The notes under the pieces were generated by a model that was not told the DNA's origin, searched no databases, and saw only the letters and a program-made list of their open reading frames with translations. 36,416 bases of DNA, taken from assembly GCF_001571345.1 (NCBI RefSeq), contig NZ_BCTP01000031.1, forward strand, positions 1 through 36,416, in the 5' to 3' direction. A program made the position numbers and the translations under genes. Origin of the DNA: Komagataeibacter xylinus NBRC 15237. Its GTDB lineage: Bacteria > Pseudomonadota > Alphaproteobacteria > Acetobacterales > Acetobacteraceae. The first letter of the stretch is position 1. Every line of letters begins with the position of its first letter. This document shows positions 5,501 through 36,416 of this stretch, one piece after another.

Positions 5501-5741
5501 TCTTCGGTGGTGTCTTCGGATCAATGCCAAGAGCCGCCGCGATCTTGGGCTGCATGTCCGGTCGCCACGAGGCCCGCCCGTCGCGACCGGTGTAATAGCT
5601 GGTCAGTCGGCCACCATCCGCGTCAGGCACTTTTCCGGGCTGGGTACGGAAGTCGTGCTCCGGATCTGGCAGTTCCTGTGTGAAATAGGCAGTAATCAGC
5701 CGACCACTGCTCTCAGCCGAGATTTTCCGGAACGTCATCAT
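2523..5741 (-). CDS. MobF-family conjugative relaxase-helicase (TrwC/TraA type)
   Basis: This enzyme nicks the plasmid at oriT, stays bound to the 5' end and unwinds the strand for transfer. The N-terminal TrwC relaxase domain (about 1-300) has candidate catalytic tyrosines Y19 and Y49/Y50, D110 in YDLTLAPHKSV, and the metal-binding triad H208, H210, H212 in DPHAHIH. A RecD2-like helicase domain follows, with Walker A GVAGSGKT near residue 514 and Walker B VIDEVGQ near 590. At 1072 residues it is full length for MobF. The first tyrosine stands alone (AYF rather than YY) and is about 30 residues from the second pair, farther than in TrwC or TraI. The ATG at 5741 overlaps the upstream stop as TGATG, implying translational coupling. 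The C-terminal 100 residues are basic and helical. Confidence 0.96.
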   Translation of the reverse strand: MMTFRKISAESSGRLITAYFTQELPDPEHDFRTQPGKVPDADGGRLTSYYTGRDGRASWRPDMQPKIAAALGIDPKTPPKNAQLNRLFEAKRAENGEDWSRNARKISAYDLTLAPHKSVTLAAEFAPTEAERAAIWHAIDRANDATMLYVAREIGFARRGHGGEDGADPGEVAWVSFRHDTARPTVEARDAATGQTYLIDTPAGGDPHAHIHNALFNVVVTEEGHVGSLDTKRLRSRVHEFGAYFQAQLADELRRIGIAQQYDASEQATVISAVPQNISDFFSKGRRNVIRAAKDYAAAEGADWAHMPIERKRRILSMAGLAARLDKDKGTSDHEIWREQARRLGWEEKSLLGTPAAPVGTREQRYDIAYRFAARHLAGEFETAAVIDHDKLRTYAARGLIGTGIEGGVKDIDHVVALIEQRGLELSGERVSLIQEMRGDRLRVTNSAQIAIEEDLAIQAARASGDRSGALSDRQITEAIGRSSLDFASDHGKTQKAAIYALGRGGALSMLTGVAGSGKTALLSPLVDAWKHDTRYDTNGRRVIGIANAWRQADALREAGIFDTSAMLPFLARLERGDVDVDQNTVLVIDEVGQVGPRQMLRLLQVQRDTGCTVKALGDHEQAQNIEAGDSIEMLRRVLDPEDMPELLSSVRQVSARNRQIADMFRGAEPEESDLEAHEFKGAAANAHTDEENDDDVRNRFHLKEVRDAIDMKRADGTIRLVGGDHEEVLQDIARLYVTRRDALVAEGAGPQRGRAKTISMSALTNQDAADLSRAVRRILQERGEISTHEITVQAIDQRGETYDLAIATGDRLRLYRRTWGSVDGKGATVGNNGDVVEVLAHGDAGLRVRTKDGLVADVEWRRFRDVKTGRVLLGFGHAMTIDAAQGLTSDEHINALPRGVELATGFTSYVAESRARGTTWTMISDAATFEAVRNQRALGDTTPITSDDLWNHVAKKMAHKPYKSLGTDLVARTRKAQDARIRELIALGRTQETLMKSGRPYGREIILETQARLAERLHKARLAEIDARLQVMIRNAPAVMTGAEQTLRSQRAAQVLGRRHHTPSASPGAAS

Positions 5742-6127: not shown

Positions 6128-6157
6128 GCCTGCGCAAAAGGTGACATTTGCGCAGGC
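6128..6157. other. Inverted repeat, candidate oriT element
   Basis: Arms GCCTGCGCAAA (6128-6138) and TTTGCGCAGGC (6147-6157) are perfect over 11 bases with an 8-base spacer. The spacer overlaps AAGGTGACA (6138-6146), and the same 9-mer recurs at 6241-6249. The site lies about 90 bases upstream of the relaxase operon, where MobF plasmids keep oriT. The nic site itself cannot be assigned. Confidence 0.5.
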
Positions 6158-21637: not shown

Positions 21638-21649
21638 ACATCGCGCGGC

Positions 21650-22120
21650 CTAAAACGGGATTTCGTCATCCACTTCCTGCGCGTTGGAAGTTGCGGCAGG
21701 AACGGGGCGCTGTGCAGCGCTCCGCGAGGGACGCTCTTCATCAAAACGTCCATCGCCCGTGCTTCGACCATTGGCCAGCACCTTCAGGTTTCCATCAAAC
21801 CGATCAATGATGATCTCGGTCACATAACGGTCCTGTCCCTGCTGATCGGTCCATTTGCGTGTCTCGAGATGGCCTTCGACATAGACCAGCGTTCCCTTCT
21901 GGCACCGACGTTCGATCACGGCCGAAAGGTGATCGTTGAAAGAGACGACACGGTGCCACTGGGTTTTTTCCCGGCGCTCGCCGCTCGCGCGATCGGTCCA
22001 GGTTTCACTTGTCGCCACGCCGAAGGATGCGATTTTGCCCTCCCCTTCCCTACGTGCGGCAAGCTCCGGATCCCTGCCCAGGTGACCGATGACGATGGCG
22101 CGATTGACTGACTGGCTCAT
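21650..22120 (-). CDS. ssb: Single-stranded DNA-binding protein
   Basis: A 156-residue SSB. The OB fold (1-112) has NRAIVIGHLGRDPE, TSETWTDRASGERREKTQWHRVV and YVEGHLETRKW. A short Ser/Pro linker leads to the acidic tip DDEIPF, which docks partner proteins. Plasmid SSBs coat incoming single strands after conjugation and damp the SOS response. AAGGA lies about 9 bases before ATG 22120. The leader is unusual: a 26-base near-perfect stem with inner hairpins (22155-22351) separates the gene from AT-rich promoter-like DNA. Confidence 0.97.
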   Translation of the reverse strand: MSQSVNRAIVIGHLGRDPELAARREGEGKIASFGVATSETWTDRASGERREKTQWHRVVSFNDHLSAVIERRCQKGTLVYVEGHLETRKWTDQQGQDRYVTEIIIDRFDGNLKVLANGRSTGDGRFDEERPSRSAAQRPVPAATSNAQEVDDEIPF

Positions 22121-22154
22121 GGTCTTGTTCCTTTTTTCCTTCCTGGTCGTCTCC

Positions 22155-22351
22155 GGCCCCTGCCGGATCTCTGACCTGGTGCGGTCGCGCGGAAGCGGGC
22201 CACAGGCGGCGGGCGCAACCTCTCGGGGCGGCAGTGGTGCGGAAGCCGCGCATGCGGCTTCACGGTGCCGTCCCGACCGCAGGCCTGGGGGTTGCGCCCG
22301 ACGACGACCGCTTCAGACCGCAAAAACCAGGTCAGAGACCCGGCAGGGGCC
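22155..22351 (-). promoter_or_regulatory. Highly structured ssb leader
   Basis: Arms 22155-22180 and 22326-22351 pair over 26 bases with one mismatch. In the ssb-sense RNA that mismatch becomes G-U. Inside, GCGGTC/GACCGC (22181-22186, 22316-22321) continues the stem after four bulged A. Further in are GGGCGCAACC/GGTTGCGCCC (22211-22220, 22290-22299, perfect) and GAAGCCGC-gcat-GCGGCTTC (22242-22261, perfect). The structure ends 34 bases before the ssb start. It may control ssb translation or message stability, or act as a DNA cruciform. Confidence 0.65.
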
Positions 22352-22359
22352 GAGGTCAT

Positions 22360-22470: not shown

Positions 22471-22477
22471 GTTCATC

Positions 22478-23585: not shown

Positions 23586-23878
23586 CCTTCCAGATAGCGC
23601 ACTGCCACGGTCACACGGCGCGCATTGGCGAGGCTGCGCAATACGACCAGATCCGAGCGGCCCCGCATATAACGGTCTTCCCAGAGACCGGTGACGGGGT
23701 TCTGCGCAGCCGCCCCCATCGTGCCGTTCAGAAAGCATTCCACGATCCACGGCCGGGTCCGATAGGGACGTCCTGAAACAGGGGCCGGAAGACGGAAGAT
23801 GGTGCCACTGGCAATGGTCCCGACCCGGAGCGGATTATTACCGCCCTGGAATGGAGACGTATAATACTGGCGGATCAT
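23582..23878 (-). CDS. Hypothetical protein of the ardC cluster
   Basis: A 98-residue, basic, strand-rich protein (GTIASGTIFRLPAPVSGRPY, then RTRPWIVECFLNGTMGA) ending in a helix and strand (RSLANARRVTVAVRYLEG). Unknown family. Its start overlaps the previous stop (ATGA at 23875) and GGAG stands 7 bases upstream. It belongs to a tight operon of small genes behind ardC. Confidence 0.75.
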   Translation of the reverse strand: MIRQYYTSPFQGGNNPLRVGTIASGTIFRLPAPVSGRPYRTRPWIVECFLNGTMGAAAQNPVTGLWEDRYMRGRSDLVVLRSLANARRVTVAVRYLEG

Positions 23879-24258: not shown

Positions 24259-24315
24259 GATGAACTCCATCGCTTAGCGCGCCCATGCGGGCGCACAGGT
24301 TTTCAGGGGTAGATT

Positions 24316-25215
24316 TCAGGCGGCAGAAGCCACGTACTCGACGGACAGCCGACGTGTCGATGAGCTGAAAATGTATTGGGCCGCGGCTGAAGCAGCACTC
24401 GCTGCGGTGAAAATGGCGCGCTTGTCAGCCTTCAGCAGTGCCAGCCAGTTCCCGATGTAATCCGCATGGCGGACCGTCGGCTCGATCTGCAGTTCCGCGC
24501 ACACGAAAGCTGATGTCATCTCTGCGACCAGTTCCTCGGCCGCGTAGGCATGGTCACCAAACCGCTTGCCAAAGGTGCGCGCCAGCCGGATTTCGGACCC
24601 GGTCCAGTGTCCGATCTCGTGAAAGACGGTTCTGTACCAATCGATCTGGTTTAAATAGGACTGCTGAGGCGGAACCCGGATGAAGTCCCCGTCCGGGGCA
24701 TAAAATGCCTTGTCGCCGCCGATACGGATGTCCGCCCCGGTTTCGCGCATCAGCGCTTCCGCGTGCGGCACGATTTCGCGTTCCGGCAGCGGCGCGGTCG
24801 GCGCGACCATGCTCTCCGGCAGGTTCTCGCACTGGTCAAGATTGAATACCGTAAACCGCTTTAGAAACGGGATCTGGCGTGGCTCGTCGGAACCCGCTTC
24901 CGATTTTGGCGTGAAACGGTCAGCATAAAACACCGTCGTTCCCTTCTCGCCTTTCCTGACATTGCCGCCCTGCGCATGCGCCTGACGGAACGTCAGCCAT
25001 TTCTGGGTAGAAAACCCCTGCATCTCTACCGAACCCCACAGCATCAGGATGTTGATCCCGGAATAGGCCCGATCGGTCGCGGCATTACGCGGCAGGGCAA
25101 TGCCGCATTTCGCGCGGCTCCACGGGCAGACCCACGGCACGGTTCCCGCTTCAAGTTCGCGGATGATGCGGTCAGTGACGGACTGGTGAATATCGGTACG
25201 TTCGGTTCTGGCCAT
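24316..25215 (-). CDS. ardC: ArdC-like antirestriction protein
   Basis: A 299-residue protein. The N-terminal ArdC ssDNA-binding domain (about 1-130) carries TDRIIRELEAGTVPWVCPW, YSGINILMLW and VRKGEKGTTVFYA. The C-terminal zincin-like metallopeptidase domain has HEIGH at 199-203 and a Glu in AEELVAEM (226-233) as third ligand. ArdC family proteins protect incoming single-stranded plasmid DNA from host restriction and may cleave host proteins. GGAG lies 7 bases before ATG 25215. It follows the 51-residue membrane protein gene by 72 bases. Confidence 0.95.
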   Translation of the reverse strand: MARTERTDIHQSVTDRIIRELEAGTVPWVCPWSRAKCGIALPRNAATDRAYSGINILMLWGSVEMQGFSTQKWLTFRQAHAQGGNVRKGEKGTTVFYADRFTPKSEAGSDEPRQIPFLKRFTVFNLDQCENLPESMVAPTAPLPEREIVPHAEALMRETGADIRIGGDKAFYAPDGDFIRVPPQQSYLNQIDWYRTVFHEIGHWTGSEIRLARTFGKRFGDHAYAAEELVAEMTSAFVCAELQIEPTVRHADYIGNWLALLKADKRAIFTAASAASAAAQYIFSSSTRRLSVEYVASAA

Positions 25216-25287
25216 GATCAGTCTCCAGAAAATGCAGACGCCGCCCCGAAGGGCGGTGCGAATGGGCAGCGGATGGCGAGGGTGGTG

Positions 25288-25443
25288 TCACCGGAGATCG
25301 ATGATGCCCGTGCACGGATCGAGGAAGACGTCGGGCAGCAGGAGGAAAGTGACCATGGAGGCCGTCCAGAGGAGCACGATGACGACGAATTTGGCAATTT
25401 CGACGGCGGGGCGGGACGGCGGCGCGATGCGGTTCTGTGCCAT
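25288..25443 (-). CDS. Small single-pass membrane protein
   Basis: A 51-residue protein: a short basic N-terminus (MAQNRIAPPSRPAVE), one membrane helix (IAKFVVIVLLWTASMVTFLL) and a short tail DVFLDPCTGIIDLR. AGGA lies 7 bases before ATG 25443. No family is known to me. It is the first gene after repeat copy E3 and lies immediately upstream of ardC, so it may act during plasmid entry at the membrane. Confidence 0.72.
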   Translation of the reverse strand: MAQNRIAPPSRPAVEIAKFVVIVLLWTASMVTFLLLPDVFLDPCTGIIDLR

Positions 25444-25503
25444 TTCCAGATCCTTTTTTCGGGGGTTTCGACCCCTTCCGGCGACCGCAGGGCAGACTGG
25501 CGG

Positions 25504-25584
25504 GCAAGGGCGCCGCACAGCGGCGGCACCGGAGCCGCGCACAGATGGCGCAGCCATCGCGCACGGCGAGGAGCCACCCCTTGC
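25504..25584 (-). repeat. 81-nt structured repeat, copy E3
   Basis: Closing stem GCAAGGG/CCCTTGC (25504-25510, 25578-25584), first hairpin CGCCGC-aca-GCGGCG, second hairpin GATGGC-gca-GCCATC on a GCCG/CGGC base. It lies 61 bases upstream of the 51-residue membrane protein gene, with a small GGGGT/ACCCC hairpin (25462-25476) between. AT-rich DNA follows at 25615-25680. Same length as E1 and E2 and differing from them by paired changes. Confidence 0.8.
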
Positions 25585-25614
25585 GCGGCAGGCTGGACTG
25601 TGGTGCACGCCTCC

Positions 25615-25680
25615 TACCTTCACTGTTTTATTTATTTATATATTTTGTTTTTATTGTATTTTTATTCAGATTGGGCCTTT
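25615..25680 (-). promoter_or_regulatory. AT-rich promoter-like DNA inside the DUF3085 gene end
   Basis: A run of A and T with few G or C, unusual in this window, lies across the last codons of the DUF3085 gene and upstream of repeat E3. On the minus strand it includes TACAAT and AAATAAAACAG (complement 25623-25633, identical to 22378-22388). It is the likely promoter for the 51-residue protein and ardC. Confidence 0.45.
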
Positions 25681-26177
25681 CCAGAGCCGCCATCCGGTCG
25701 TCCGGATCGGTTTTTTTGCGGGGATGCCAGATAGGGGCAACTGATCCGCGCAGGCGTGACATCAATCCACAAACGACTGCCCACAGTCGCCTCCAGTGCC
25801 TTGCGGATGGTGTCGGCAGAAAGAAATTCCGCGCCATCGTCACCGCCAAACGACGCGCGTTTGACATCGTACCAGTCGTCAGGACGTGTGCGCGGGTCCG
25901 CTTCGACAGCATAGGCGACAAGGTTCGCCTGACCCTCAGCGTCACTGAAGCCCGGATAACCATTCGACATCAGGTACACCCCATGATCGCCAACCAGCAT
26001 GAGACCTGCCGGTATCTTCGCACGGTCGACATCCGCACCGGCCGGATGGCGCGACGACACGCCAGCCTTGAGAAAGGCCGGGTCAACAAGCTGATCATAG
26101 GTAGGGGGATGTTCGCTCGCGGCTTGCGCATGAGCAAGAAGACGCGCCACCAAGGCGTGGTCAAAATGAAGTTTCAT
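25662..26177 (-). CDS. DUF3085 domain protein
   Basis: A 171-residue protein of the DUF3085 family, found on plasmids and in phage-like elements, function unknown. The family pattern is clear: HFDHALVARLLAHAQAASEHPPTYDQLVDP, KIPAGLMLVGDHGVYLMSNGYPG, VAYAVEADP and RASFGGDDGAEFL. The last about 25 residues are basic and low-complexity and run into AT-rich regulatory DNA. ATG 26177 has AAGGAA 8 bases upstream. A strong intrinsic terminator stands only 37 bases upstream with no room for a promoter, so expression probably depends on read-through. Confidence 0.9.
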   Translation of the reverse strand: MKLHFDHALVARLLAHAQAASEHPPTYDQLVDPAFLKAGVSSRHPAGADVDRAKIPAGLMLVGDHGVYLMSNGYPGFSDAEGQANLVAYAVEADPRTRPDDWYDVKRASFGGDDGAEFLSADTIRKALEATVGSRLWIDVTPARISCPYLASPQKNRSGRPDGGSGKAQSE

Positions 26178-26213
26178 TGCAGTATTCCTTCGTGTGATTC
26201 CTTGCGAGGACAC

Positions 26214-26245
26214 AAAAAAGGCGGAACACCGAAGTATCCCGCCTT
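26214..26245 (-). terminator. Strong intrinsic terminator or attenuator before DUF3085
   Basis: The minus-strand RNA forms a 12-pair stem, AAGGCGGGAUAC with GUGUUCCGCCUU (two G-U pairs), closed by a UUCG tetraloop and followed by six U. It lies after the DUF5983 gene stop (26299) and 37 bases before the DUF3085 start. It ends the transcript coming from the PAPS-reductase-like genes, or attenuates DUF3085. Confidence 0.85.
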
Positions 26246-26298
26246 AAGAAATAAGAACCGGCGCCTCTGGCCCGAGGGACGCCCGATGCCGTTGCCGG

Positions 26299-26607
26299 TC
26301 ATTCATCTTCATCGTCATCAAAGAAACGAAGCGAGGCATCGACCGGGCCGTCCGCATCAAACAGGACGTAATCACAGTCGTGATTCCGGGCCAGGGCAAG
26401 AATGGCCCGCAGTGATCGCGACCCCGGCCAATCATGGGAGTATGGATCCAGCGGGACATGGACAAACCATCCGTGTGGGCCGGACAGGCAGGTCAGCCCA
26501 GAAGAACCACCTGACCTTGCATATCTCTCAAGGTGTCCGCGGTCCGACAGGGGGAGGTGGCCGGTGCTCAGGTCGAGGAATTTCCGGATCTGGAACGGCG
26601 CTAACAT
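26299..26607 (-). CDS. DUF5983-like protein
   Basis: A 102-residue protein. FLDLSTGHLPLSD at the start, HGWFVHVPLD in the middle, and ILALARNHDCDYVLFDADGPVD near the end match what I recall of the DUF5983 family of plasmid proteins. The tail FFDDDEDE is acidic. Function unknown. GGGAG lies 7 bases before ATG 26607. It follows the PAPS-reductase-like gene by 31 bases and is the last gene before the terminator. Confidence 0.78.
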   Translation of the reverse strand: MLAPFQIRKFLDLSTGHLPLSDRGHLERYARSGGSSGLTCLSGPHGWFVHVPLDPYSHDWPGSRSLRAILALARNHDCDYVLFDADGPVDASLRFFDDDEDE

Positions 26608-26638
26608 CGGGTTTCTCCCTGCTGGAGGATGAGGCGGG

Positions 26639-27664
26639 TCAGACCGGCCCGGCGCTCTCGCCGAATGCGCCAGCGGGCAGGACCCATTGTTCGGGGGAGG
26701 TGAGGACACGGCCACGCCAGCGGCGGCAGAGCGCGCGACGCACCAGACTCGGGTGCTGGCGCACGGGGCCGTAGACCGTGCCGCCGCTGGCCAGCGTGCC
26801 GAGGTCCCGGTCGCGTCGGATGGTGCAGCCAAATGCGCGTTCCCACTCACACAGCCGGGCGAACCGATCCGGGTCCACGTGCCGCAGCGTTGCAGCCTGA
26901 TCAGCAGACATGAATACACATGTCAGGCAGGACAGACGGCCAAACCCGAGCTGATAGGGAAGCGGCGGGATCACGCCATGCCGACGCAGGATCTGCCAGA
27001 CAGCCGCTTCACTCCAGGCATGTACCGGCCGCCAGTGATCGATATGCCGTCGGATCCGACCATCACGACAGTCTGCCCGGTGCCGCTCAAAGACAGCGTA
27101 ACGGGCACGGTTCGCGGATTCCGCCGCGCGTTCTCCGGTTACAAACAGGGTCCGGGCATGACTGAAGCGCGCCTGGTTCCGCAGGGCGCCATCCGCAACC
27201 ATGATCTTGGCGTATGGGGAACACCAGCGGACCGACAGGTTCGCCGAAACCTGCGGGAAGCGGCGGCGTGTATTGGGCGGTCCCTTGCCACCGACAGTGA
27301 CCCGCCCTGTCGGCGTATCGAACCAGACCGGTGCGGTCGGCGCATTCTCGCGCAGCATTTCCCGCACGATCCCGCCCTGGCGCGCGGAGAAATACAGCCT
27401 GACGCCAAGGGCTGCAGCCAGATGCCGCCCGTAATCGGGCACATGCGGCCAGTCAAAAACGTCCCCGTCATCGTCCACAAGATGGTGCCACCACTCGATG
27501 CGCTGGGGCGCCACGCCCTTTTCGAGCAGGTGCAGGGTACTAGCGAGGGAATCCTTGCCAAAGGAACAGGCGATGATGACGTGATCATAACGCGCCAGAT
27601 CAGGTATCTCTCCGGGCTCCGGCGGGACAGTTTCCTGGCGGGATGACAGGCTTGCGGTCGCCAT
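26639..27664 (-). CDS. PAPS reductase-like PP-loop ATPase
   Basis: A 341-residue member of the phosphoadenosine-phosphosulfate reductase family. The PP-loop is CSFGKDS (33-39), which in this fold adenylates a substrate. Further family-like parts are PPNTRRRFPQVS and RWCSPYAK. Cysteines C148, C246 and C249 (SCLTC), with C199 or C272, could bind an iron-sulfur cluster or act as thiol carriers. Plasmid and phage members are not sulfate-assimilation enzymes. Relatives include IbrA and DndC, linked to gene regulation or DNA phosphorothioation. ATG 27664 has GGAG 7 bases upstream. Its leader holds the structured element at 27699-27796. Confidence 0.88.
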   Translation of the reverse strand: MATASLSSRQETVPPEPGEIPDLARYDHVIIACSFGKDSLASTLHLLEKGVAPQRIEWWHHLVDDDGDVFDWPHVPDYGRHLAAALGVRLYFSARQGGIVREMLRENAPTAPVWFDTPTGRVTVGGKGPPNTRRRFPQVSANLSVRWCSPYAKIMVADGALRNQARFSHARTLFVTGERAAESANRARYAVFERHRADCRDGRIRRHIDHWRPVHAWSEAAVWQILRRHGVIPPLPYQLGFGRLSCLTCVFMSADQAATLRHVDPDRFARLCEWERAFGCTIRRDRDLGTLASGGTVYGPVRQHPSLVRRALCRRWRGRVLTSPEQWVLPAGAFGESAGPV

Positions 27665-27698
27665 GGACATTCTCCTTGTCTGAATGTCTTCTGGCGGT

Positions 27699-27796
27699 CC
27701 GAAGGGGTATCGCGGGTCAAACGCGGCGCGTGCGCCGGCATCGCAGGCCCGCGGAGCGGGACAAGAGCCACCGTTTGAGGCGCGATGGCCCTTCGG
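27699..27796 (-). promoter_or_regulatory. Structured leader element E4, relative of the 81-nt repeat
   Basis: Three stacked perfect stems are separated by symmetrical 2x2 loops: CCGAAGGG/CCCTTCGG (27699-27706, 27789-27796), ATCGCG/CGCGAT (27709-27714, 27781-27786) and TCAAACG/CGTTTGA (27717-27723, 27772-27778). They enclose two hairpins: CGGCGC-GCGCCG (27724-27737) and CCCGC-gga-GCGGG (27748-27760). The order and the unpaired GCAtCG and GAGCCAC match the 81-nt repeats, while the stems differ. It ends 34 bases before the PAPS-reductase-like start. On the plus strand a T-run follows it (27801-27806). Confidence 0.65.
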
Positions 27797-27827
27797 GCAT
27801 ATTTTTTCCTGTGTCTTCCTGCTTTTC

Positions 27828-28241
27828 CTATGCGTCCGCGTTCAGGTATTCGTGCAGATACCGGCGCAGCACCATGCAGGCTGCATGGGTGTCCCGCTCA
27901 CCGTCATCCGCAAGGACACGATCCATCACTCTGGCGAGAACGGCGGCTGCCTCTCGGCCCGGGCTGAAAACAAGGGAAAAACCAAACTGTCCCTGCAGCA
28001 CGCCGGTCCCGGCATCGTGGACCATGGCCACGATCTCGCCATGGACGACTTCCTCGACCTCAAGGTCCACTTCCTGGCCGTCAGGCAGAATGGTGGTCCG
28101 GATCCCGTCAGAGTCCACACTGTCGGGGACCGCATTGAGGACGATCCGCGCAGCCGCCTCGGCGTCCGTCGCCGTGACCCTGAAATCGCCGGCATCGGCT
28201 TCAAACAGGCGCTCAACCAGCGTGACACGAAAATCAGGCAT
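27828..28241 (-). CDS. Hypothetical protein
   Basis: A 137-residue acidic protein of unknown family. A strand-rich N-terminus (MPDFRVTLVERLFEADAGDF, then RVTATDAEAAARIVLNAV) resembles the small domains of plasmid DUFs that sense amino-acid strings, and the C-terminal helix holds VLARVMDRVLADDGERDTHAA. Its ATG overlaps the end of the upstream gene by 8 bases and has a strong GGGAGG inside that gene. It precedes the structured leader of the PAPS-reductase-like gene. Confidence 0.78.
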   Translation of the reverse strand: MPDFRVTLVERLFEADAGDFRVTATDAEAAARIVLNAVPDSVDSDGIRTTILPDGQEVDLEVEEVVHGEIVAMVHDAGTGVLQGQFGFSLVFSPGREAAAVLARVMDRVLADDGERDTHAACMVLRRYLHEYLNADA

Positions 28242-28572
28242 TGCCGTCCTCCCTTACCAGGACAAATTCGCTCAGTGTCTTGGCTTCCCGCCATGGGCAG
28301 TGGCACACCATCACGTCCTTTCCGCAGATCTCGACGACACAGCCACGCTCTCTCAGCCGGGCCAGCTCGGCCGACGTGACTCTGGGAACCGCCGTGAAAG
28401 CGGAAAATTCGACGACTGCCGCCTCCACGCTCTCATAGGGTCCCCGCCATCGGCGGGCCGCGGGCGGATAGATTTCAGGCGTCCGGATCAGAACCCCACC
28501 ATCCGGGTGGAAACCCAGTTCAACCACATACCTGCCGATCAGACGCTTTTCCGTCACGTATTCATGGGTCAT
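28234..28572 (-). CDS. Hypothetical protein
   Basis: A 112-residue protein, unknown family. It has an N-terminal strand pair (RLIGRYVVELGFHPDGGVLI), YESVEAAVVEFSAFTAVPR, and a C-terminal VEICGKDVMVCHCPWREAK with three Cys and a His that could bind metal. ATG 28572 has GGAG 7 bases upstream; a GTG one codon earlier is too close. It overlaps the next gene by 8 bases. A folded element stands between it and the ParB-like gene. Confidence 0.78.
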   Translation of the reverse strand: MTHEYVTEKRLIGRYVVELGFHPDGGVLIRTPEIYPPAARRWRGPYESVEAAVVEFSAFTAVPRVTSAELARLRERGCVVEICGKDVMVCHCPWREAKTLSEFVLVREDGNA

Positions 28573-28671
28573 CACGGTTCTCCTTCGCCGACGCAGGTGA
28601 ACGCGTAACCTGACGTTCTGGCTAAGCCCGGTTGGGGCGCATCGCAGAATTTCGCGGTCGACGTCCTGCCT

Positions 28672-28752
28672 GAGGCAGTTGCTGGCTCACCGCCCGACGT
28701 CACCATGGGGGCGACGGGCCGTGAGCCAGAGCCTTACGGCGGCAACAGCCTC
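28672..28752 (-). promoter_or_regulatory. Folded element between parB-like gene and small gene pair
   Basis: GAGGCAGTTGC and GCAACAGCCTC (28672-28682, 28742-28752) pair at 10 of 11 positions. Immediately inside, TGGCTCAC/GTGAGCCA (28683-28690, 28721-28728) is perfect, with CGCCC/GGGCG within. It begins 3 bases after the ParB-like stop and lies about 100 bases before the next start. It may end one message or lead the next. No U-tract is present. Confidence 0.5.
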
Positions 28753-28754
28753 GC

Positions 28755-30680
28755 TCAGCTGAAACCTACAAACTCAACATGCGTCCTGAGGAATTCTTCA
28801 GGTGTCTGCGATGGCGGCGCCAGGCTTTCCGCCCTGCCGTGCGGCACGTCATCCTCCTGATCTGCCGCCAGGTCTGGGGATGCACCAGCCACTTCATCGA
28901 GCTCAATGCCCGACGCGGCAGGATCATCGGTTCCCGGGCTATCCGCCAGCGCACCAGCATCCGCGTCGTCTTCCAACTCGGTATCGTCGTCATGCGCCAA
29001 GTCCCCATCATCGTCATCCGCTCCGGATGGCGGGACGAGTCCTTCCGCGAAGGTGGCGTTCAGCGCTGCGACATCGACCTGGAAACGCGCTGCAGGATGC
29101 ACCCAGATCCCCTGCCCGACATGGTCCATCAGGGCGCGGCGCATTTCCTTGCCGGTATTGCGCGGCAGGATGCCTTCCGCCTTTATGGCCTTCGTGATGC
29201 CGGGCTTGCTGAGCGTTTTCAGGAAGTCTTCATCCGCCATGGCGGGCAGATGGTCGTCCGCTTTCACGATATGGCCGACCAGGACACCCCAGTCGCCGCT
29301 ATTCGTCGCGTTCTTCTCGCAGGACAGAACGGCTTTGAGCACGTCGACAGCAGCGCCACGCAGGAGCGCCTCGTCCAGCGCCATCTCGCCATCCTGGAAC
29401 AGTCCGGCGGCGGCCACGAGCCGGCGTGACGGACGGCGCTGCGGGTAGTGTGCGTTGGAATCCCCATCCACCCGGACATTCTGCGCATTGAGGGCCGCGA
29501 TCATCAGCCCGACCAGGACCCATGGATCGGCAGAGCCCCGCATGCCGTCCAATGCGGCATGCAGCGCCTGGGTGCGGAAACTGCCGATCATGTCAAAACC
29601 GCGCCCCGAAATATCGGGCCGTTCCCTCGGCCCTTCTGGCAGGGCTTCAATGACGGCGGATGGCGTCACGCGACCTGCCGCCTCGCTGCCCGGCAGGACG
29701 CACCAACCCTCGCGAACCTTGAGGCGATGATCAAGCCAGAAGAATTTCGTGGCGCCCTCGCGCTGCCAGTAGATCCGGACCATGCCGGGTTCGAAAACCG
29801 GCTCGCCGTTCTCGTCGCTCTGCACGATCAGTGCGTCTTCAGGCGTGTTCTGACCCAGCCACTGGCGCTGCGCCTTCTCATAGGCGAAGCCGTCATCGGT
29901 ATAACGACCGTCCTTCCCGGCTTCACCGAACAGATCTTCCTGCCAGGCGATCCGGCAGCTTTTTGCAATGGCGTCATCGAACGAGGCCTCGTTTGCATAA
30001 AAACGGTCCTGCCGCAGGGCAGATGCAATCCGGTCCCAATCGGGGATGGCAGCACCGGGTTCCCAATTTCCGTCGGGCAGTTGCTCGCCCTCATCTTCGC
30101 AGGCTTCGACATCCTCGGGCGGCGACGAGCCAACCAGAAACCCGAAATGGCCCCAGACCTGTTCCTGCAGCGCGGTGGACGCAAGGGCGATACTCGCCAG
30201 TTCACGATTGCCGGGACCTTTGCCCGCCTCGATCCACGCCAGAATCTCGGGCAGGATGGCAGACAGGCGGCCGATCTGCTTCAGCTGCACCGGTGTGAGC
30301 ATCAGCGCCTTGCAGATCGCGGTGTCATTCCACTTTTTTTCCTCCCGAAGCCTGGCGACAACCCGCCACTGTTCAACCTGGGTCATGGGCTGACGGATCA
30401 TGTTCTCCGACGCGGCACGCATCCGGTCCAGTTCCACATCATCGCCTGCCACCGTCACCTGAATGGTTTTCAGGCCGGCCTTGACCGCGGCACGCCGGCG
30501 GCGATGCCCTGCAACGATCATCAGGCCGCCCGGGGTTTCGCGGACCAGAGGCGGGTGGATGATCCCGACGGCCTTGACGTTCAGCGCCAGCTGGCGCTCT
30601 TCCGCCTCATTTGGGATGGATTTCCGCGGGTTTTCGGGGTTGTCGAGCAGGGTTTTCGGATCGACTTCGCGCAGTTCCAT
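28755..30680 (-). CDS. Large ParB/Spo0J-family protein
   Basis: A 641-residue protein with an N-terminal ParB domain: NPRK (17-20), GHRRRRA (58-64) and SENMIRQPMTQVEQW (91-105) are the CTP-binding boxes. A helix-turn-helix follows (about 115-140, WNDTAICKALMLTPVQLKQIGRL). The remaining 450 residues are not recognised and end in a long acidic stretch (about 555-620). It is much larger than partition ParB (about 300) and has no parA beside it, so plasmid partition is unlikely. ParB-like proteins of this size recur in plasmid establishment regions next to methylase-helicases and ArdC. GGAG lies 8 bases before ATG 30680. Confidence 0.9.
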   Translation of the reverse strand: MELREVDPKTLLDNPENPRKSIPNEAEERQLALNVKAVGIIHPPLVRETPGGLMIVAGHRRRRAAVKAGLKTIQVTVAGDDVELDRMRAASENMIRQPMTQVEQWRVVARLREEKKWNDTAICKALMLTPVQLKQIGRLSAILPEILAWIEAGKGPGNRELASIALASTALQEQVWGHFGFLVGSSPPEDVEACEDEGEQLPDGNWEPGAAIPDWDRIASALRQDRFYANEASFDDAIAKSCRIAWQEDLFGEAGKDGRYTDDGFAYEKAQRQWLGQNTPEDALIVQSDENGEPVFEPGMVRIYWQREGATKFFWLDHRLKVREGWCVLPGSEAAGRVTPSAVIEALPEGPRERPDISGRGFDMIGSFRTQALHAALDGMRGSADPWVLVGLMIAALNAQNVRVDGDSNAHYPQRRPSRRLVAAAGLFQDGEMALDEALLRGAAVDVLKAVLSCEKNATNSGDWGVLVGHIVKADDHLPAMADEDFLKTLSKPGITKAIKAEGILPRNTGKEMRRALMDHVGQGIWVHPAARFQVDVAALNATFAEGLVPPSGADDDDGDLAHDDDTELEDDADAGALADSPGTDDPAASGIELDEVAGASPDLAADQEDDVPHGRAESLAPPSQTPEEFLRTHVEFVGFS

Positions 30681-30748
30681 GATTTTTACTCCGTGTTCTC
30701 AGGACGCCTTTCCTGATGCACTCCGGCGGCCAGCACCGGGCTGGCGGG

Positions 30749-30829
30749 GCAAGGGCGCCGCGCAGCGGCGGCACCGGACCCGCGCGCAGGCGGCGCAGAC
30801 GCCGAGCACGGGGAGGCGCCACCCCTTGC
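30749..30829 (-). repeat. 81-nt structured repeat, copy E2
   Basis: Closing stem GCAAGGG/CCCTTGC (30749-30755, 30823-30829), first hairpin CGCCGC-gca-GCGGCG, second hairpin with GGCG/CGCC on a CCCG/CGGG base. It lies 69 bases upstream of the ParB-like start and 28 bases after the methylase-helicase stop. A perfect GGCAGCC/GGCTGCC hairpin overlaps that stop codon. See copies E1 (36111) and E3 (25504). Confidence 0.8.
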
Positions 30830-30857
30830 GGCGCCTGGCCGGAGATGGCAGCCCTTC

Positions 30858-33800
30858 TCAGGCTGCCACCTCTTTTTCCTTCTCCCTGTCCTCGGTGTCG
30901 TCATGCGCCGGGTCTTCATCGGTCGCGGTCGCCGCCAGATCGTCTTCCAGCGCTTTCAGCTCAGCGCGCTTTTCATCAAGCATCGCCTGTTCCGCGAACG
31001 GCAGGCCCAGACGGGCGCGGTAGGATGGCAGGCGATGCTGCGCTTCCTCCCGCATCCGGATTGCGTCATGGAGCGCATCATCGATCCGAAGCAGCGCATG
31101 TTCGAGCCGCGAGGTCAGCCCAAGGCCCTTCGTGTCGTCCTCGACGGCGATTTCAATGCGGCCTGAGCGCGCTTCCACAAACAGCGTCACGTCGACCGCG
31201 CGCTTTTCGCCGCGCATACGACGGCCTTGCCCTGCTTCACACATGACGGCGAACCCACCGATGCGTCCGAGGTTCCAGATCCCTGCCTCACCGTTCTTCG
31301 CGGCCAGGCGGACCTGGGACAGGAGCCATGACCCGGCCTTCTCGCGCTCGCTGACGTCCCCCTTGTCCCGACGCAATACGAACGCATCCCCCTTCGTGGG
31401 CTGACGGCTGGCAATATCCGCCTCGATAAGCGGGATCTGGCGCTCCGCGCCCGCAATCTCACGCTCGGCCCGGTCGATGGCACGTTTTACGGCGAACTGG
31501 TCGTCATAATGGGCGGCCGCGAGTCTCTCGAGCCGCGCAAGATCGGCCTCCAGCCCGGCTTTGTGCATCAGCCGGGCATCGCCTGAGGCGAGCGCCTTGG
31601 CCATGGCGAACTGGTTTCCCCCTTCCCCGCCAATGTCCTCAATCCGGCGGATGGAACGATCACCTGACATCGCAAGGCCAATAAAGCGCTGCTTGCGTTC
31701 GAGGAGCTGCCAGTTGGTCGCGTCAACGGAACTCTGCTGGGCGTAGGCGTAGAGTTCGATTTCCGCGTGCTGGTTGCCCTGCCGCTCGATGCGACCCTCG
31801 CGCTGGATGATGTCGGAGACCAGCCACGGCACGTCGAGATGGTGCAGAGCCTTGAGGCGCTGCTGGGCGTTGACGCCGGTGCCCATGGTCGCCGTCGAGC
31901 CGATCAGGATCCGCTTGCGGCCGGCATTGAGATCACCGAACAGCTTCTGCTTCGCCGCACTCTTCCTGTAGTGCTGCATGAACGCGATTTCCGCGCGCGG
32001 CACGCCCAGGCGGATCAGTTCATCGCGGATCCACGTGTAGGCGGAAAAACCGCGTGTCTCCATCGCGCTCTCGGTGCCCAGATCCGAAAAGATCATCTGC
32101 ACCGCCCCCGGCAGGTCATACGGTCGACCGGTTTCAGGATCGCTGTAACGGCATTCCGATGTCTCCTGCCATATCCGGAACACGTTCCCGATCATCAGGT
32201 TCAGCTTCGATGTGTCGTCATTCGCGGCGAGAGGGGCGACGAAGCGCAGGTCGATCGCGGCATGACGGGCATCCGTGATGACGGACAGGAGGATGTCATC
32301 GCCCTTCTGGGGACGCCCCTGGCGTGCTTCGATGGCGTTGATGCGGGCCGCCAGCGTCTTCTGGTAGGCCCTGAAGTTATCGTTTGTCGGCGCGACAATA
32401 ATCTCGCGACGTCCGCCCCGGATTGCTGGCAGATTCACGTACTGGCGCAGGTCATCGTGCTGCACGACATCCGCGAAGTCGCGATACATCGCCATGAGGT
32501 CGGCGACGTTGACGAACTCGGTGAAGCGCGTGACCGGCTTGTAAAGCCCGCTTGGCTGCAGTTCCAGTTCGGTACGGGTTTCGCCGAAATTGGCTGCCCA
32601 GGCATCGAATTCGTGCAGGTAGCGCTTCTGCAGCGCCTCAAGATCCATATAGCGGCTGACCGTCCACATCTCGGCCAGCGTATTGGTGATCGGGGAGCCG
32701 GACGCCATGATCAGCGGGCGCTCCGGATTTTTTGCCGCCAGGTAGCGCGTCTTCACGAAGAGATCCCAGGCCCGCTGCGAGCCGTTCGGATCGACCCCCT
32801 TGAGGTCGGACTGGTTGGTTGCAAAACTCAGCTTCCGGAACTGCTGCGCTTCATCGACGAGGATCTGGTCGATGCCAATCTCTCCCAGATGCACGAGATC
32901 GTCCTTTCGAGCGGCAAGGCCTTCCAGCTTCGCCTGCATCTTCTCCTTCATGCTCTCGACCCGCTTGCGCGACAGGCGGTCGGCCGCGTCGACGCTTTCC
33001 AGCACGTCCTCGTAAGACGCGATCTGCGCCTCGATCATCTGGCGTTCGAAATCGCCCTCTACCGGGATGAACCTGAATGCGTCATGCGTGATGATGATCG
33101 CATCCCAGTTTCCGGTCGCGGCCCGGGCGAGGAACCGCTGGCGCTTTGCCTTCACGAAGTTCGTCTCGTCAGCGACAAGGATCCGTGCGGTCGGGTAGAG
33201 CATGAGGAATTCGCGGGCCATCTGGGCGAGGCAGTGACCAGGGACGGCAATCATCGCCTTGCTGATCAGGCCAAGCCGCTTCTGCTCCATGACGGCCGCA
33301 ACCATCGAGAAGGTCTTTCCGGAGCCGACCGCGTGCGCGATATACGTGCCGCCTGCGGCGATGATCCGCCAGATGACCCGTTTCTGGTGGGGGCGCAGGC
33401 TGATCGTGGTACTTGCACCGGGCAGGCGCAGATGGGAGCCATCAAACGCACGTGCCACGAGGTTGTTGTAGGTGTCGTTATACAGCCTGACCAGCCTCTC
33501 GGCCCGATCGCCATCCTGCCAGACCCATGTCTCGAACGCACGCCTGATCGCCGCCAGTTTTTCCTTTGCGGCTTCCGTCTCCTGTGTGTTCAGTTCGCGG
33601 TGCTCATTGCCATCGCCATCACGCCAGACATCCCATATTTTTGGCGATGCCTGCGTCAGGGCATCTTCCAGCAGTTCGCCGGCATGTCGCCGTTCCGTTC
33701 CCCAGACTGACGTTGCCTCGGCCTTGCCCATGAATGCCCGCTTCTCCACGGTCCAGCAGGCGACCGCGGGCGCGTGATAGATGGTCGTTTCGACCCCGAG

Positions 33801-35948
33801 CACCTCGGCGGTAAAGGCGATGATGTCGCTGACCGGCAACCACGGAGCGCCAAGGCGCGCGGTGATCTCAGACGGACGTAGATCGGCTGGCTGGACGGCT
33901 TCCAGCGCCGTGACGTTCCGGGCGTAGCGCCCATCGATCCGGGCCGCATCGCGTGCCTCTTCCAGCTTGGTCCGCACGGTGCCGGAGAGCATTTCATCAG
34001 CCGTGACCCAGACATCGCGACCATCCACGCTTCTTACCGGATCGAGATAGACCGCATCCCCCAGTGCGGCTGCGACCTCAGCTTCGGACTGCCCCATGAG
34101 TTCCGCGATCCGCGGCATTTCCACGCCGCCTGTTTCATGCAGGCAGACGGCCAGGGCGTCATGGGCGGAATGGATCTCGGGTTCGACAGGCGCATGAATG
34201 ACGCGCTCCGAGAAAATCGGTCCCATCCGGCCTTTCTGTGTCGCCTCGTCGTATTCCTCGATGGACGAGACCAGCCAGACATCGGGATCATCATAAAATG
34301 GCGTCAGGTTCGGTCGCCGCTGGGTTTCGTTTTCAACCCCGGTTTCCGGATCGATCCTGACTGTCACATTCATCAGGTTGATCGGCCCGAACTGTCGGAC
34401 AAAGCTGAAATAGGCACGCTTCAGATCACCCTGCAGGCGTCCATAGGGCAGGTTCTCCATCTGCGCCCGCAGAACCGCGCGTGCCGCATCCCGGACGGGT
34501 ATCAGCGCGGTAATGATCCGGGCATGTTTCTGAAAGAGGCCGTCCTTCTGATCCCCTTTCCTGATGGCGACAGTGGTGACCTGTCCGTCGCAGATCTGTT
34601 GCAGGACGCCTTTCGTGACGAAGTAGGAGCCCTCTTTCAACTGGGCGCCATCGGCAGCCGTGCCGACCAGCACACCGGCTCCTATCGGCCGTACAATGCG
34701 CTGGTCCAGGGGTTCCGGAAAGCGCACGTCCTGCCCGATCCGGCTCAGGGCCTCGGGCAACTTCACATCGAGCCTGAATCCGTCAGGCGCGTTGCACGTG
34801 TAGTCGGGACCGAACTGGGTGGTGGTCCAGCCGTGATGGCCAAGCACCTGCTCCGGATGGTCGAGGAAGTAGCGATTGACGAGGAGCGGACCGTTACCCA
34901 GGTCGCTATCTGCAAGGGCGCCGGTTTCCAGCCAGGTCTCATCGTCGACCACGTCGCCAATCATGCGCTTGCGGAACACCAGCACGTCCACCACCACGTC
35001 CGTGCCGGCGTCATCGCGCATTGCCCCGGCCGGAAGCCGGACCGCCCCCACGAGGTCAGCCATGTCGGCGATGGTTCGACGCGCGGTGCTGTCCGTCTTG
35101 TCCAGCGTATGGCGGGACGTGACGAAAATTGCGATGCCGCCCGGGCGGAGTGCTTCGATGGATCGGGCAATGAAAAAATCATGCAGGCTCAGGCCAAGCC
35201 GTCCCAGACCTTCCGGGCCACGCACGGTGCGATTGGAAAAGGGTGGATTACCGATCGCAAGGTCATACCCGTCTGCGAGCTTCGCTGTCGTGAGATCCTC
35301 GCTGCGGATCCACTGGTTCGGATAGAGCCTGCGCGCAATCCTTGCCGTAATCGGATCATTCTCGATCCCGGTAAAGGCGATGCGTCCCTCGAGCCTTTCC
35401 GGTCGGGCCGCGATGAAAAGACCGGTCCCACAGCCGGGTTCAAGCACGGAACCGCCTCTGAAGCTCATCTGCAGCACTTTGTTCCAGAGTGCGTGCACGA
35501 TCAGTTCAGGGGTAAAGTGCGCATATTGTGTCGCGCGCTTCAGTCCTGCCCTTTCCACGTCTGTTGTGGAGGCATGGATCGCCTCGCCAATCTCTTCCCA
35601 GCCTGGGCGGGCGCTATCGCTTCCGGATGGAAACAGGTTGTTCGCCAGTTCTCCTGCTCCAAAGCCAATGAAGCGTGACAGGATGATCTGTTCGGGGGAC
35701 GAAGCGTTTCGGTCTGCTTCTTCAATCTCCTTGAGCAGCGCGATAGCCAGTGCATTGTCACGAGCCCGCTGTTTCCAGGTGTCAGCGAGGCCTCGGTCGG
35801 CCACCATATGAAAGTCGATCTTGGGAAGGGCCATCGCGGCCGGCAAGACAGGGGGCGAGCCATCTTCGCCTTCAAGTTCGCCCCAGAAAAGGTCGTTCTG
35901 GGTTTCTGCGAGAGCGGTTGTGCCGAAGAGGTTGAGCTGGAACGACAT
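30858..35948 (-). CDS. DNA methylase-helicase fusion (polyvalent establishment protein)
   Basis: A 1696-residue protein. The N-terminal N6-adenine methylase domain has the SAM motif VLEPGCGTGLF (168-178) and catalytic NPPF (234-237). A superfamily 2 (SNF2-like) helicase follows: HAVGSGKT near 873, DEAQQF near 1031, and the C-terminal lobe IGSTATMGTGVN and QREGRIERQGNQ near 1386. A coiled-coil and charged end closes the protein. Such giant fusions travel with conjugative plasmids and phages and, like P1 DarB, are thought to guard incoming DNA against restriction. GGAG lies 7 bases before ATG 35948. It is the first gene of the minus-strand series, preceded by repeat E1. Confidence 0.93.
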   Translation of the reverse strand: MSFQLNLFGTTALAETQNDLFWGELEGEDGSPPVLPAAMALPKIDFHMVADRGLADTWKQRARDNALAIALLKEIEEADRNASSPEQIILSRFIGFGAGELANNLFPSGSDSARPGWEEIGEAIHASTTDVERAGLKRATQYAHFTPELIVHALWNKVLQMSFRGGSVLEPGCGTGLFIAARPERLEGRIAFTGIENDPITARIARRLYPNQWIRSEDLTTAKLADGYDLAIGNPPFSNRTVRGPEGLGRLGLSLHDFFIARSIEALRPGGIAIFVTSRHTLDKTDSTARRTIADMADLVGAVRLPAGAMRDDAGTDVVVDVLVFRKRMIGDVVDDETWLETGALADSDLGNGPLLVNRYFLDHPEQVLGHHGWTTTQFGPDYTCNAPDGFRLDVKLPEALSRIGQDVRFPEPLDQRIVRPIGAGVLVGTAADGAQLKEGSYFVTKGVLQQICDGQVTTVAIRKGDQKDGLFQKHARIITALIPVRDAARAVLRAQMENLPYGRLQGDLKRAYFSFVRQFGPINLMNVTVRIDPETGVENETQRRPNLTPFYDDPDVWLVSSIEEYDEATQKGRMGPIFSERVIHAPVEPEIHSAHDALAVCLHETGGVEMPRIAELMGQSEAEVAAALGDAVYLDPVRSVDGRDVWVTADEMLSGTVRTKLEEARDAARIDGRYARNVTALEAVQPADLRPSEITARLGAPWLPVSDIIAFTAEVLGVETTIYHAPAVACWTVEKRAFMGKAEATSVWGTERRHAGELLEDALTQASPKIWDVWRDGDGNEHRELNTQETEAAKEKLAAIRRAFETWVWQDGDRAERLVRLYNDTYNNLVARAFDGSHLRLPGASTTISLRPHQKRVIWRIIAAGGTYIAHAVGSGKTFSMVAAVMEQKRLGLISKAMIAVPGHCLAQMAREFLMLYPTARILVADETNFVKAKRQRFLARAATGNWDAIIITHDAFRFIPVEGDFERQMIEAQIASYEDVLESVDAADRLSRKRVESMKEKMQAKLEGLAARKDDLVHLGEIGIDQILVDEAQQFRKLSFATNQSDLKGVDPNGSQRAWDLFVKTRYLAAKNPERPLIMASGSPITNTLAEMWTVSRYMDLEALQKRYLHEFDAWAANFGETRTELELQPSGLYKPVTRFTEFVNVADLMAMYRDFADVVQHDDLRQYVNLPAIRGGRREIIVAPTNDNFRAYQKTLAARINAIEARQGRPQKGDDILLSVITDARHAAIDLRFVAPLAANDDTSKLNLMIGNVFRIWQETSECRYSDPETGRPYDLPGAVQMIFSDLGTESAMETRGFSAYTWIRDELIRLGVPRAEIAFMQHYRKSAAKQKLFGDLNAGRKRILIGSTATMGTGVNAQQRLKALHHLDVPWLVSDIIQREGRIERQGNQHAEIELYAYAQQSSVDATNWQLLERKQRFIGLAMSGDRSIRRIEDIGGEGGNQFAMAKALASGDARLMHKAGLEADLARLERLAAAHYDDQFAVKRAIDRAEREIAGAERQIPLIEADIASRQPTKGDAFVLRRDKGDVSEREKAGSWLLSQVRLAAKNGEAGIWNLGRIGGFAVMCEAGQGRRMRGEKRAVDVTLFVEARSGRIEIAVEDDTKGLGLTSRLEHALLRIDDALHDAIRMREEAQHRLPSYRARLGLPFAEQAMLDEKRAELKALEDDLAATATDEDPAHDDTEDREKEKEVAA

Positions 35949-36110
35949 GGCCGTGCTCCGTACAAACGCCGGCGCCCGGTGCTGCTTCTGCAGGCCGGGA
36001 TGTTTCCGGGTCAGGTTTTCGGGATGTCAGGAACGGGCGTGCTAATCAGGTTGTGTCGCCTGATTACTCTTTCCTTCAGCTCTCATTGCAACCGGGTCGG
36101 GCGGTGCGGG

Positions 36111-36191
36111 GCAAGGGTGCCGCGTAGCGGCAGCACCGGACCCGCGCGCAGGCGACGCAGACGCCGAGCACGGGGAGGAGCCGCCCCTTGC
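36111..36191 (-). repeat. 81-nt structured repeat, copy E1
   Basis: Closing stem GCAAGGG/CCCTTGC (36111-36117, 36185-36191), first hairpin TGCCGC-gta-GCGGCA, second hairpin with GGCG/CGCC on a CCCG/CGGG base. It lies 163 bases upstream of the methylase-helicase start, with AT-rich DNA beyond it at 36210-36290. Same orientation as E2 and E3 relative to the following gene. Confidence 0.8.
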
Positions 36192-36204
36192 GGCGTGCTG
36201 GTCG

Positions 36205-36300
36205 ATCTGGTGCTTTTACATACTGGCTTATATTTCTATTATGGCTTTTTATTCTCGGTTTATTAGCTTTTGGATTCTCGAATCTAAATCATATCCCTAA
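36205..36300 (-). promoter_or_regulatory. AT-rich promoter-like DNA before the methylase-helicase gene
   Basis: The minus strand here is A-rich (AATAAAAAGCCATAATAG and TATAAGCC). It could hold -10 boxes for the long minus-strand series. As at 25615 and 22360, the AT-rich part is followed by the folded GC-rich leader and then the gene. Confidence 0.4.
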
Positions 36301-36336
36301 AGGGGTGTTTCTCGATTGGTGTAGTTGCAGAGATTG

Positions 36337-36355
36337 CGACGTTAATTCAACGTCG
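36337..36355. repeat. Palindrome CGACGTT-aattc-AACGTCG at the right end
   Basis: Perfect 7-base arms with a 5-base spacer, flanked by ATT/AAT. The arms equal the inner part of the inverted repeat at 6281-6316. A direct repeat AAGCTGCT(T/G)CTT follows at 36359-36370 and 36381-36392. The rest of the last 220 bases holds no gene that I can support. Confidence 0.45.
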
Positions 36356-36416
36356 AATAAGCTGCTTCTTCAAGGGGGGAAAGCTGCTGCTTACATACCG
36401 GAAGGTAATGCGTCTT

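Follow-up and report, generated by a model that had tools for sequence, protein, structure and literature searches.

A folded, repeated element before early genes of alphaproteobacterial plasmids as a candidate single-stranded-DNA initiation signal

Why should a plasmid carry one structured sequence before several of its genes, and would that structure act in RNA or in DNA? The question is raised by positions 1 to 36,416 of contig NZ_BCTP01000031.1 of Komagataeibacter xylinus NBRC 15237 (hereafter, the window, 36,416 nucleotides [nt] in length), in which an initial annotation had noticed an 81-nt element in three equally oriented copies, each upstream of a minus-strand gene. These copies (copies 1 to 3 in Table 1) form the top-ranked repeat family of the window (90 nt; same orientation), with the other two 83% and 93% identical to the middle copy in the repeat search, and the start codons downstream of them are 60, 65, and 159 nt away. 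Copy 2 sits in a 177-nt gap between the stop of the methylase-helicase gene (30858) and the start of the ParB-like gene (30680). The four base pairs said to change on both sides do so when the sequence is indexed by hand: by the numbering within the element, copy 3 has T-A at pair 8-22, where the other two have C-G, and pairs 31-64, 42-54, and 43-53 are G-C, A-T, and T-A in copy 1 and C-G, G-C, and C-G in copies 2 and 3. Two points of the initial description had to be revised, since a basal stem, P0, adds about 20 to 25 nt per side to the 81 nt and since three is not the total; a fourth copy lies 43 nt ahead of the start of a PAPS-reductase-like gene. Because copies 2 and 3 are closely related, three copies alone would be thin evidence, and it is the wider family that settles the matter. 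The same genome carries a second set of four copies on another contig (C22, 28401-41774); a differing cap type is common to those at 28404 and 32751, whose flanks are like those of window copies 1 and 2.

The covariance model that had been suggested for the copies was built and carried into a wider search. At an E value of up to 0.05, the first model (R1; two helices, 13 sequences) found the element in 42 of 200 genomes from the family to which the window belongs, taken as Acetobacteraceae, and also revealed copy 4. The second (R2; 25 pairs) found it in 83 of 397 genomes and 31 of 102 genera of the same family, the two genome samples overlapping, and a sequence search yielded divergent copies in Gluconobacter and Roseomonas plasmids. 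An exact 20-base core string, GAGCATGGCGAGGACCCACC, occurred in 62 stretches of species genomes, assigned by their titles to Rhodobacteraceae, Hyphomicrobiales, Kiloniella, Acetobacteraceae, and others recognized as Alphaproteobacteria, with one titled just "Proteobacteria". Random scans outside the family, each including the window's own genome, returned 2 of 385, 2 of 299, and 2 of 337 genomes, figures that say little on absence elsewhere because few candidates were scored per genome. A comparison with Rfam release 15 gave no match at the gathering score in the window; elsewhere there were one weak match in 21500-36416 (E value, 1.7) and two weak matches in nine relatives, none of them at the element, and a known Rfam RNA family is ruled out by this lack of a matching covariance model. 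Among the matches listed from the open-licence literature (titles and abstract openings), no paper described the element. One strong copy (5154-5231, 75 bits) was seen in a phage-like IMG/VR contig (L169) with terminase- and tail-like reading frames by eye. Another record labelled as a bacteriophage, MT837352.1 (7 kb, copy at 6803-6884), was considered as a single-stranded-DNA phage and rejected, its reading frames being plasmid-like by eye (ParA-, ArdC-, and Fic-like).

Across the family, the fold is that of a three-way junction carried by a longer basal stem. In its commonest form, read on the plus strand, P1a is followed by a short hairpin, P2, GG(G/C)-A-CC-G-GA-GCCA-C-GC, a variable hairpin P4, GC-A-TGGC-GA-GG-A-(C/G)CC, AC, and P1b; other cap types occur, including a short one in Roseomonas, and many copies have the further stem P0 outside P1. 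In a first set of 95 distinct rows (of 103), aligned with a model that held P1 and P2, 92.0% of cells were paired versus 77.6% in shuffles, 21 of 25 pairs showed two-sided changes versus 13.3 in shuffles, and the covariation score was 0.289 versus 0.090. When the structures were slid by 1 to 3 columns, pairing in this set dropped to 37 to 45%. A second set, 66 distinct rows (of 72) mostly from other taxa and aligned with a model that held all five helices, was 95.9% paired versus 83.6% and repeated the result for P1 and P2; P3 and P5 are nearly invariant there because the loci were picked by the core string. As our substitute for R-scape, we redistributed the changes of each column over a FastTree tree. 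Under this tree-aware null, 19 of 25 pairs in the first set and 15 of 25 in the second reached P < 0.05 uncorrected, with six pairs per set at the smallest P value that the test could return, and these probabilities are rough because the rows share ancestry and the models to which they were aligned contain these very helices. The drift of P1 with its pairing kept is evident from GCAAGGG/CCCTTGC, GGGTCAAAAG/CTTTTGACCC, and GCAACAG/CTGTTGC. P0 differs from gene to gene and is part of the fold; its mean pairing score is 22.9 versus 12.3 for swapped flanks, but only 43 of 95 copies exceed the 95th percentile of the latter.

These data agree with the earlier proposal of selection on structure, and chance similarity of the copies is ruled out by both the repeat ranking and the covariation. 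The structural case rests on comparison rather than energy, since in the window only copy 1 folds better as DNA than its shuffles on the plus strand (z of −3.50, versus −0.74 and −0.80 for copies 2 and 3). Likeness within a plasmid is weakly raised (identity of caps, 0.68 versus 0.55; of P1a plus P2, 0.81 versus 0.76) and was not used. In many 5′ flanks (for example, loci L107 and L015) a further small hairpin, P6, whose sequence differs between lineages, seems by eye to be present between the element and the ribosome-binding site.

The position of the element relative to genes was scored for every R2 match with an E value of up to 0.05 in annotated stretches (26 + 15 = 41, a repeat match to one copy not being counted again); one had no annotated neighbor, which left 40 scorable copies, and six further matches of one Acetobacter record fell outside the annotated stretch and were left out of the count. 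In 35 of the 40, which are not independent because several of the plasmids are closely related, the 5′ side of the element stands 32 to 317 nt away from where a gene on the other strand begins, and one more copy overlaps an opposite-strand gene (DUF3768, Paracoccus albus) at its annotated start. Large plasmids carry up to six or more copies on one strand, most of them 32 to 72 nt before different genes. In contigs with several copies, 34 of 35 pairs of neighbors within 25 kb, taken from the R1 matches in the 200 family genomes, share a strand. By Pfam, the downstream products include ArdC, ArdA, SSB, ParB-like, DUF6878, and DUF2958 proteins, with two more having no family. The AQPYD motif of the ArdA-like protein was found in at least 11 of the listed reading frames, which were chosen by length rather than by a gene finder and one of which (L107) was Pfam tested. 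The initial annotation had named copies scattered without regard to gene starts as the outcome that would undo it; what we found instead is 36 of 40 copies before or at a gene start. These wider placement data fit its suggestion of a common control of establishment genes, and they would also be in keeping with the switching on after plasmid entry that it gave as an example. On one Shinella plasmid (L191), two equal-scoring inverted copies, at 3054-3140 and 7767-7853, flank a partition and toxin-antitoxin segment.

In which molecule is the fold selected? The annotation had left RNA and a DNA cruciform open. Departures from Watson-Crick pairing were counted on the element strand, leaving out the two outermost P1 pairs: G·T outnumbered A·C by 33 to 9 over distinct rows (47 to 9 when those pairs are included), and by 28 to 8 once the rows were clustered at 80% identity. 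The second set gave 11 to 4. For P5 and P3, to which the alignment model assigned no pairing, the counts were 25 to 8 and, clustered, 20 to 7; by helix, the excess is clear in P2 (7 to 0) and P5 (16 to 3). We then compared strands by folding 150 copies (152 minus two with missing flanks). Under DNA energies, the element strand had the stronger fold of the two in 131 of 150 copies, with 2 ties and an average difference of 4.2 kcal/mol; under RNA energies, this held for 92 of 150. Stretches taken from the 5′ flank as controls gave no preference (61 of 150, the DNA figure, and 76 of 150). The loops tell in the same direction. In DNA, a GNA triloop with a closing C-G pair is unusually stable, and GNA triloops make up 62 of 151 P2 loops, versus 1 GNRA and no UNCG; the P4-side loops comprise 21 GNA, 1 GNRA, and 3 UNCG of 120. 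Together, the G·T excess, the stronger DNA folding, and the GNA loops point to one single DNA strand, namely that which serves the downstream genes as template, as the selected molecule, and they favor it over an mRNA leader or a symmetric cruciform.

Is this strand the one that is transferred in conjugation (the T-strand)? The genes with elements point to mobF in the plasmids of K. saccharivorans, G. thailandicus, and Roseomonas; this would make the element strand the T-strand provided that the origin of transfer (oriT) adjoins the relaxase operon and that the gene for the relaxase is the last to enter, and this is what we infer for MOBF plasmids. A search for RSF1010-type nick cores on the same replicon gave a direct test. 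In Acidisoma the nick core (4704), which adjoins mob genes 3.3 kb from the element, and the element (8036) are both on the plus strand, and in Jeongeuplla both are on the minus strand. In a search of 49 of the genomes, a core was found in 12, and both stood on one contig only in Rubellimicrobium, where the strands are opposite. The nick core lies on the element strand in two of three species, which supports, without proving, the T-strand identity. The element itself is ruled out as an oriT, in that its P1 sequence drifts, large plasmids hold several copies, and nick cores lie elsewhere.

Taken together, we put at about 0.57 the probability that the element is a folded single-stranded-DNA signal on the T-strand of alphaproteobacterial conjugative and mobilizable plasmids that starts RNA synthesis of early genes. 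On entry into the recipient, each copy on the T-strand would fold into the basal stem P0/P1, the hairpin P2, and the long arm P5-P3-P4, and would thereby offer a double-helical landing site for a host enzyme, most likely RNA polymerase. RNA synthesis would start at the element and run towards the 5′ end of the T-strand; the transcript would serve as mRNA for the leading gene that starts some tens of bases on (encoding ArdC, ArdA, SSB, a ParB-like protein, or a methylase-helicase), and it may prime second-strand DNA synthesis as well. With conversion of the plasmid to duplex DNA, the fold would be lost and the signal would fall silent. Both the putative promoter activity and the part given to RNA polymerase, the most likely enzyme, are drawn from comparative analysis. 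The best reading is a new family of single-stranded-DNA initiation elements, probably similar in role to Frpo and ssi. A wider proposal, which we regard as tentative and hold at rather less than even odds, is that of a class-wide non-Frpo promoter on single-stranded DNA: a three-way junction, marked by GNA triloops and by a capped arm that is conserved, which the transcription or priming machinery of Alphaproteobacteria would read without a −10 box, giving each of many early genes its own start signal and being silent in double-stranded DNA.

Several observations weigh against an element that promotes transcription on the T-strand. A −10-like (TATAAT-like) hexamer was looked for by eye in the copies and none was seen, a sigma-70 consensus scan of the window stayed at chance level (2 found, 1.9 expected), and the TTGnC common in P1b resembles a −35 box but may be mere stem sequence. 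The placement has exceptions, too: 4 of the 40 copies (two from G. sphaericus, one from Shinella, and one weak match in Cereibacter sphaeroides) are not placed ahead of a gene on the other strand, the distance to the next gene is 140 to 317 nt on small plasmids, and inverted pairs occur in Shinella, Siccirubricoccus, Bradyrhizobium STM 3809, and an Aurantimonadaceae genome. As to the strand, copy 3 with its flanks folds equally well on either one, the P1 core lacks a G·T excess (1 to 1) and that of P3 is small (9 to 5), and a strand-biased mutation pattern could contribute to the excess elsewhere. P0 yields no strand evidence because its G·T/A·C ratio of 1.75 is near the 1.47 of swapped flanks. 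In Rubellimicrobium rubrum, nick core and element are on opposite strands on both contigs that hold both (one genome).

One rival reading is a site that serves priming only, like ssi or sso, where the fold serves to convert the T-strand or another single-stranded intermediate to duplex DNA and lies before genes only secondarily. One or two copies, loosely tied to start codons, are present on each of four small plasmids (13, 25, 9.7, and 20 kb), which by eye share no gene outside mobility, replication, and partition, so that a host factor should suffice; furthermore, Frpo RNA is described as priming DNA synthesis in vitro (PMC7690428). One site would do for priming, whereas the large plasmids repeat the element before gene after gene, and we consider priming alone unlikely, if still worth keeping in view. 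Priming may be the older role of the element, or a parallel one, to judge from the small plasmids, whose one or two copies stand off from the nearest gene. The proximity to start codons, and the fact that the hairpins form on the mRNA strand too, would also suit a structured leader in the 5′ untranslated region (an attenuator, a readthrough block, or an RNA-protein site), for which EGeRS1-B of pLS20, reported to block readthrough in its native orientation, is a precedent (PMC8708921). The G·T/A·C counts and the folding both disfavor the mRNA strand, RNA-type tetraloops are rare in P2, a consensus promoter upstream is not above chance in the window, and the element is farther from the next gene in small plasmids; an mRNA leader is accordingly a poor bet.

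Zygotic induction could in principle do without single-stranded DNA if the repeat were a double-stranded operator or promoter under a plasmid repressor, like CUP or EGeRS2 of p576. The regulon logic would be the same, and MucR-family regulators are coded on three large plasmids. An operator keeps its sequence, whereas the stems of the element drift over long distances with pairing kept, for which a sequence-specific operator was rejected, and the small plasmids show no shared regulator by eye; a repressor-controlled repeat is thus very improbable. Least probable of all is a mobile or recombination element (a miniature inverted-repeat transposable element [MITE], a repetitive extragenic palindrome, or an attC-like site) that has spread between genes. 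The element is repeated and intergenic, two equal-scoring inverted copies sit on one Shinella plasmid, and attC sites also act as a folded single strand. Such spreading would not account for neighbors that keep to one strand, on which ground an inert palindrome or MITE was rejected, or for the narrow distance to start codons in large plasmids, or for a basal stem that differs from gene to gene and belongs to the fold.

How does the element compare with known systems? CUP elements of the IncN plasmids pKM101 and R46 are double-stranded, repressor-controlled promoters that likewise are repeated before a regulon of leading-region genes. The sso of rolling-circle plasmids is a folded site that works on one strand and is present once per small plasmid; it differs from the present element, which occurs in multiple copies before genes in large plasmids. 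Frpo and ssi of F and ColIb-P9 are closer in setting, in that they too are repeated before early genes of the leading region, including ssb and anti-restriction genes, and fold as a single-stranded template. According to published accounts, Frpo reconstitutes promoter boxes by folding, and the leading genes of F require it for their early expression (PMC9849209, PMC11541004), and sso is described as comparable to ssi (PMC7690428). We saw no sequence relation of the element to Frpo, the two being compared by description and not by alignment. Frpo is one long stem-loop within a region given as 328 bp (PMC7690428), and the element is a three-way junction with a conserved cap that lacks a recognizable −10 box, belongs to Alphaproteobacteria, and is found on small mobilizable plasmids as well. 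Because a −10 box is a defining feature of Frpo, the element was not filed as one. A 2024 survey used as seeds five known Frpo/ssi sequences and similarly shaped candidates, and the word Alphaproteobacteria is absent from its main text. The nearest published regulon idea is EGeRS1 of the pLS20 family of Bacillus, where several structured GC-rich repeats precede ardC and other establishment operons (PMC8708921). As far as its description allows the two to be likened, EGeRS1 is longer (420 to 750 bp), and the transferred strand of pLS20 is given as the non-template strand (PMC8708921), whereas the element strand is the template, its assignment to the T-strand being in part inferred.

The surroundings of the copies are those of a transferable plasmid (Table 1). 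The 301 bases around the middle copy match ten plasmid records (nine from Komagataeibacter and one from Novacetimonas) at 96.7 to 99.0%, and by these matches the window lies on a Komagataeibacter-type plasmid. From the map of a K. saccharivorans plasmid and Pfam, the setting comprises a methylase-helicase, ParB-like, PAPS-reductase-like, DUF3085, ArdC, SSB, and DUF3991-TOPRIM proteins and a UvrD-type helicase, whose genes all point to the MOBF relaxase with a few genes of opposite orientation between them; this arrangement is a leading-region layout. Counterparts of the methylase/helicase-type protein at the same place are annotated as DEAD/DEAH helicase or N-6 DNA methylase; in several Komagataeibacter records (NZ_CP117859.1, 8842-13941, and relatives) it is labelled lactate dehydrogenase, apparently in error. 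The search upstream of mobF for a conserved oriT gave nothing shared outside a close relative: the inverted repeat listed as a weak candidate is present in K. saccharivorans and not in the compared G. thailandicus or Roseomonas stretches.

Table 1. Copies of the element and neighboring features in the window
Feature	Position	Strand	Basis and context
Element copy 1	25501..25588	+	R1 76.1 bits, R2 78.1 bits, fold; before the 50-aa open reading frame and ardC
Element copy 1, layout	~25480..25611 with basal stem P0		Core P1-P2-P5-P3-P4
Element copy 4	27714..27782	+	R1 50.3 bits, R2 56.1 bits, fold; before the PAPS-reductase-like gene
Element copy 2	30746..30833	+	Repeat search, R1 model match, fold
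Element copy 3	36108..36195	+	Repeat search, R1 model, fold; before the methylase-helicase gene (start 35948)
50-aa open reading frame downstream of copy 1	25288..25440	-	Within frame 25288-25623; start from annotated homologue
ArdC anti-restriction protein	24316..25215	-	Pfam ArdcN 4.6e-42, MPTase-PolyVal 1.3e-51
PAPS-reductase-family gene downstream of copy 4	26639..27670	-	Open reading frame and annotated homologue
ParB-like protein downstream of copy 2	28755..30680	-	Pfam ParB_N 5.8e-11
Large methylase/helicase-type protein downstream of copy 3	30858..35948	-	Helicase_C, ResIII, and SNF2, each below the Pfam cut-off
SSB	21650..22120	-	Pfam SSB 2.1e-28
Imperfect hairpin of ~200 nt before ssb	22154..22352		Separate structure of another type; inverted-repeat search, DNA fold
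MOBF relaxase (TrwC/TraI type)	2523..5741	-	Pfam TrwC 3.6e-41; element-bearing genes point towards it
Perfect 11-bp inverted repeat upstream of relaxase operon	6128..6157		Candidate oriT hairpin (weak)

The window also holds structures of other types. The hairpin about 33 nt before ssb has a DNA folding energy of −89.6 kcal/mol (z of −9.06), is about 98% conserved in two Komagataeibacter relatives, and resembles the long stem of Frpo more than the three-way-junction element does. Strong folds also precede ssb in Acetobacter ascendens and in a Roseomonas plasmid (z of −3.8 and −5.4), and two ssb genes of G. thailandicus have no strong preceding fold (z of −0.9 and −1.1). Another inverted repeat, at 11989-12156, has 24-nt arms that are 92% complementary with 120 nt between them.

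Promoters on single-stranded DNA have been studied best in enterobacterial plasmids. If the proposed signal is real, plasmids of a whole bacterial class would have solved early expression with a different DNA fold, and genes without known function that carry the element would be likely establishment or anti-defence genes; the covariance model is ready for annotating leading regions. Even without a promoter role, the element would stand as a strongly supported case, in a mobile element of bacteria, of selection acting on the fold of a single DNA strand.

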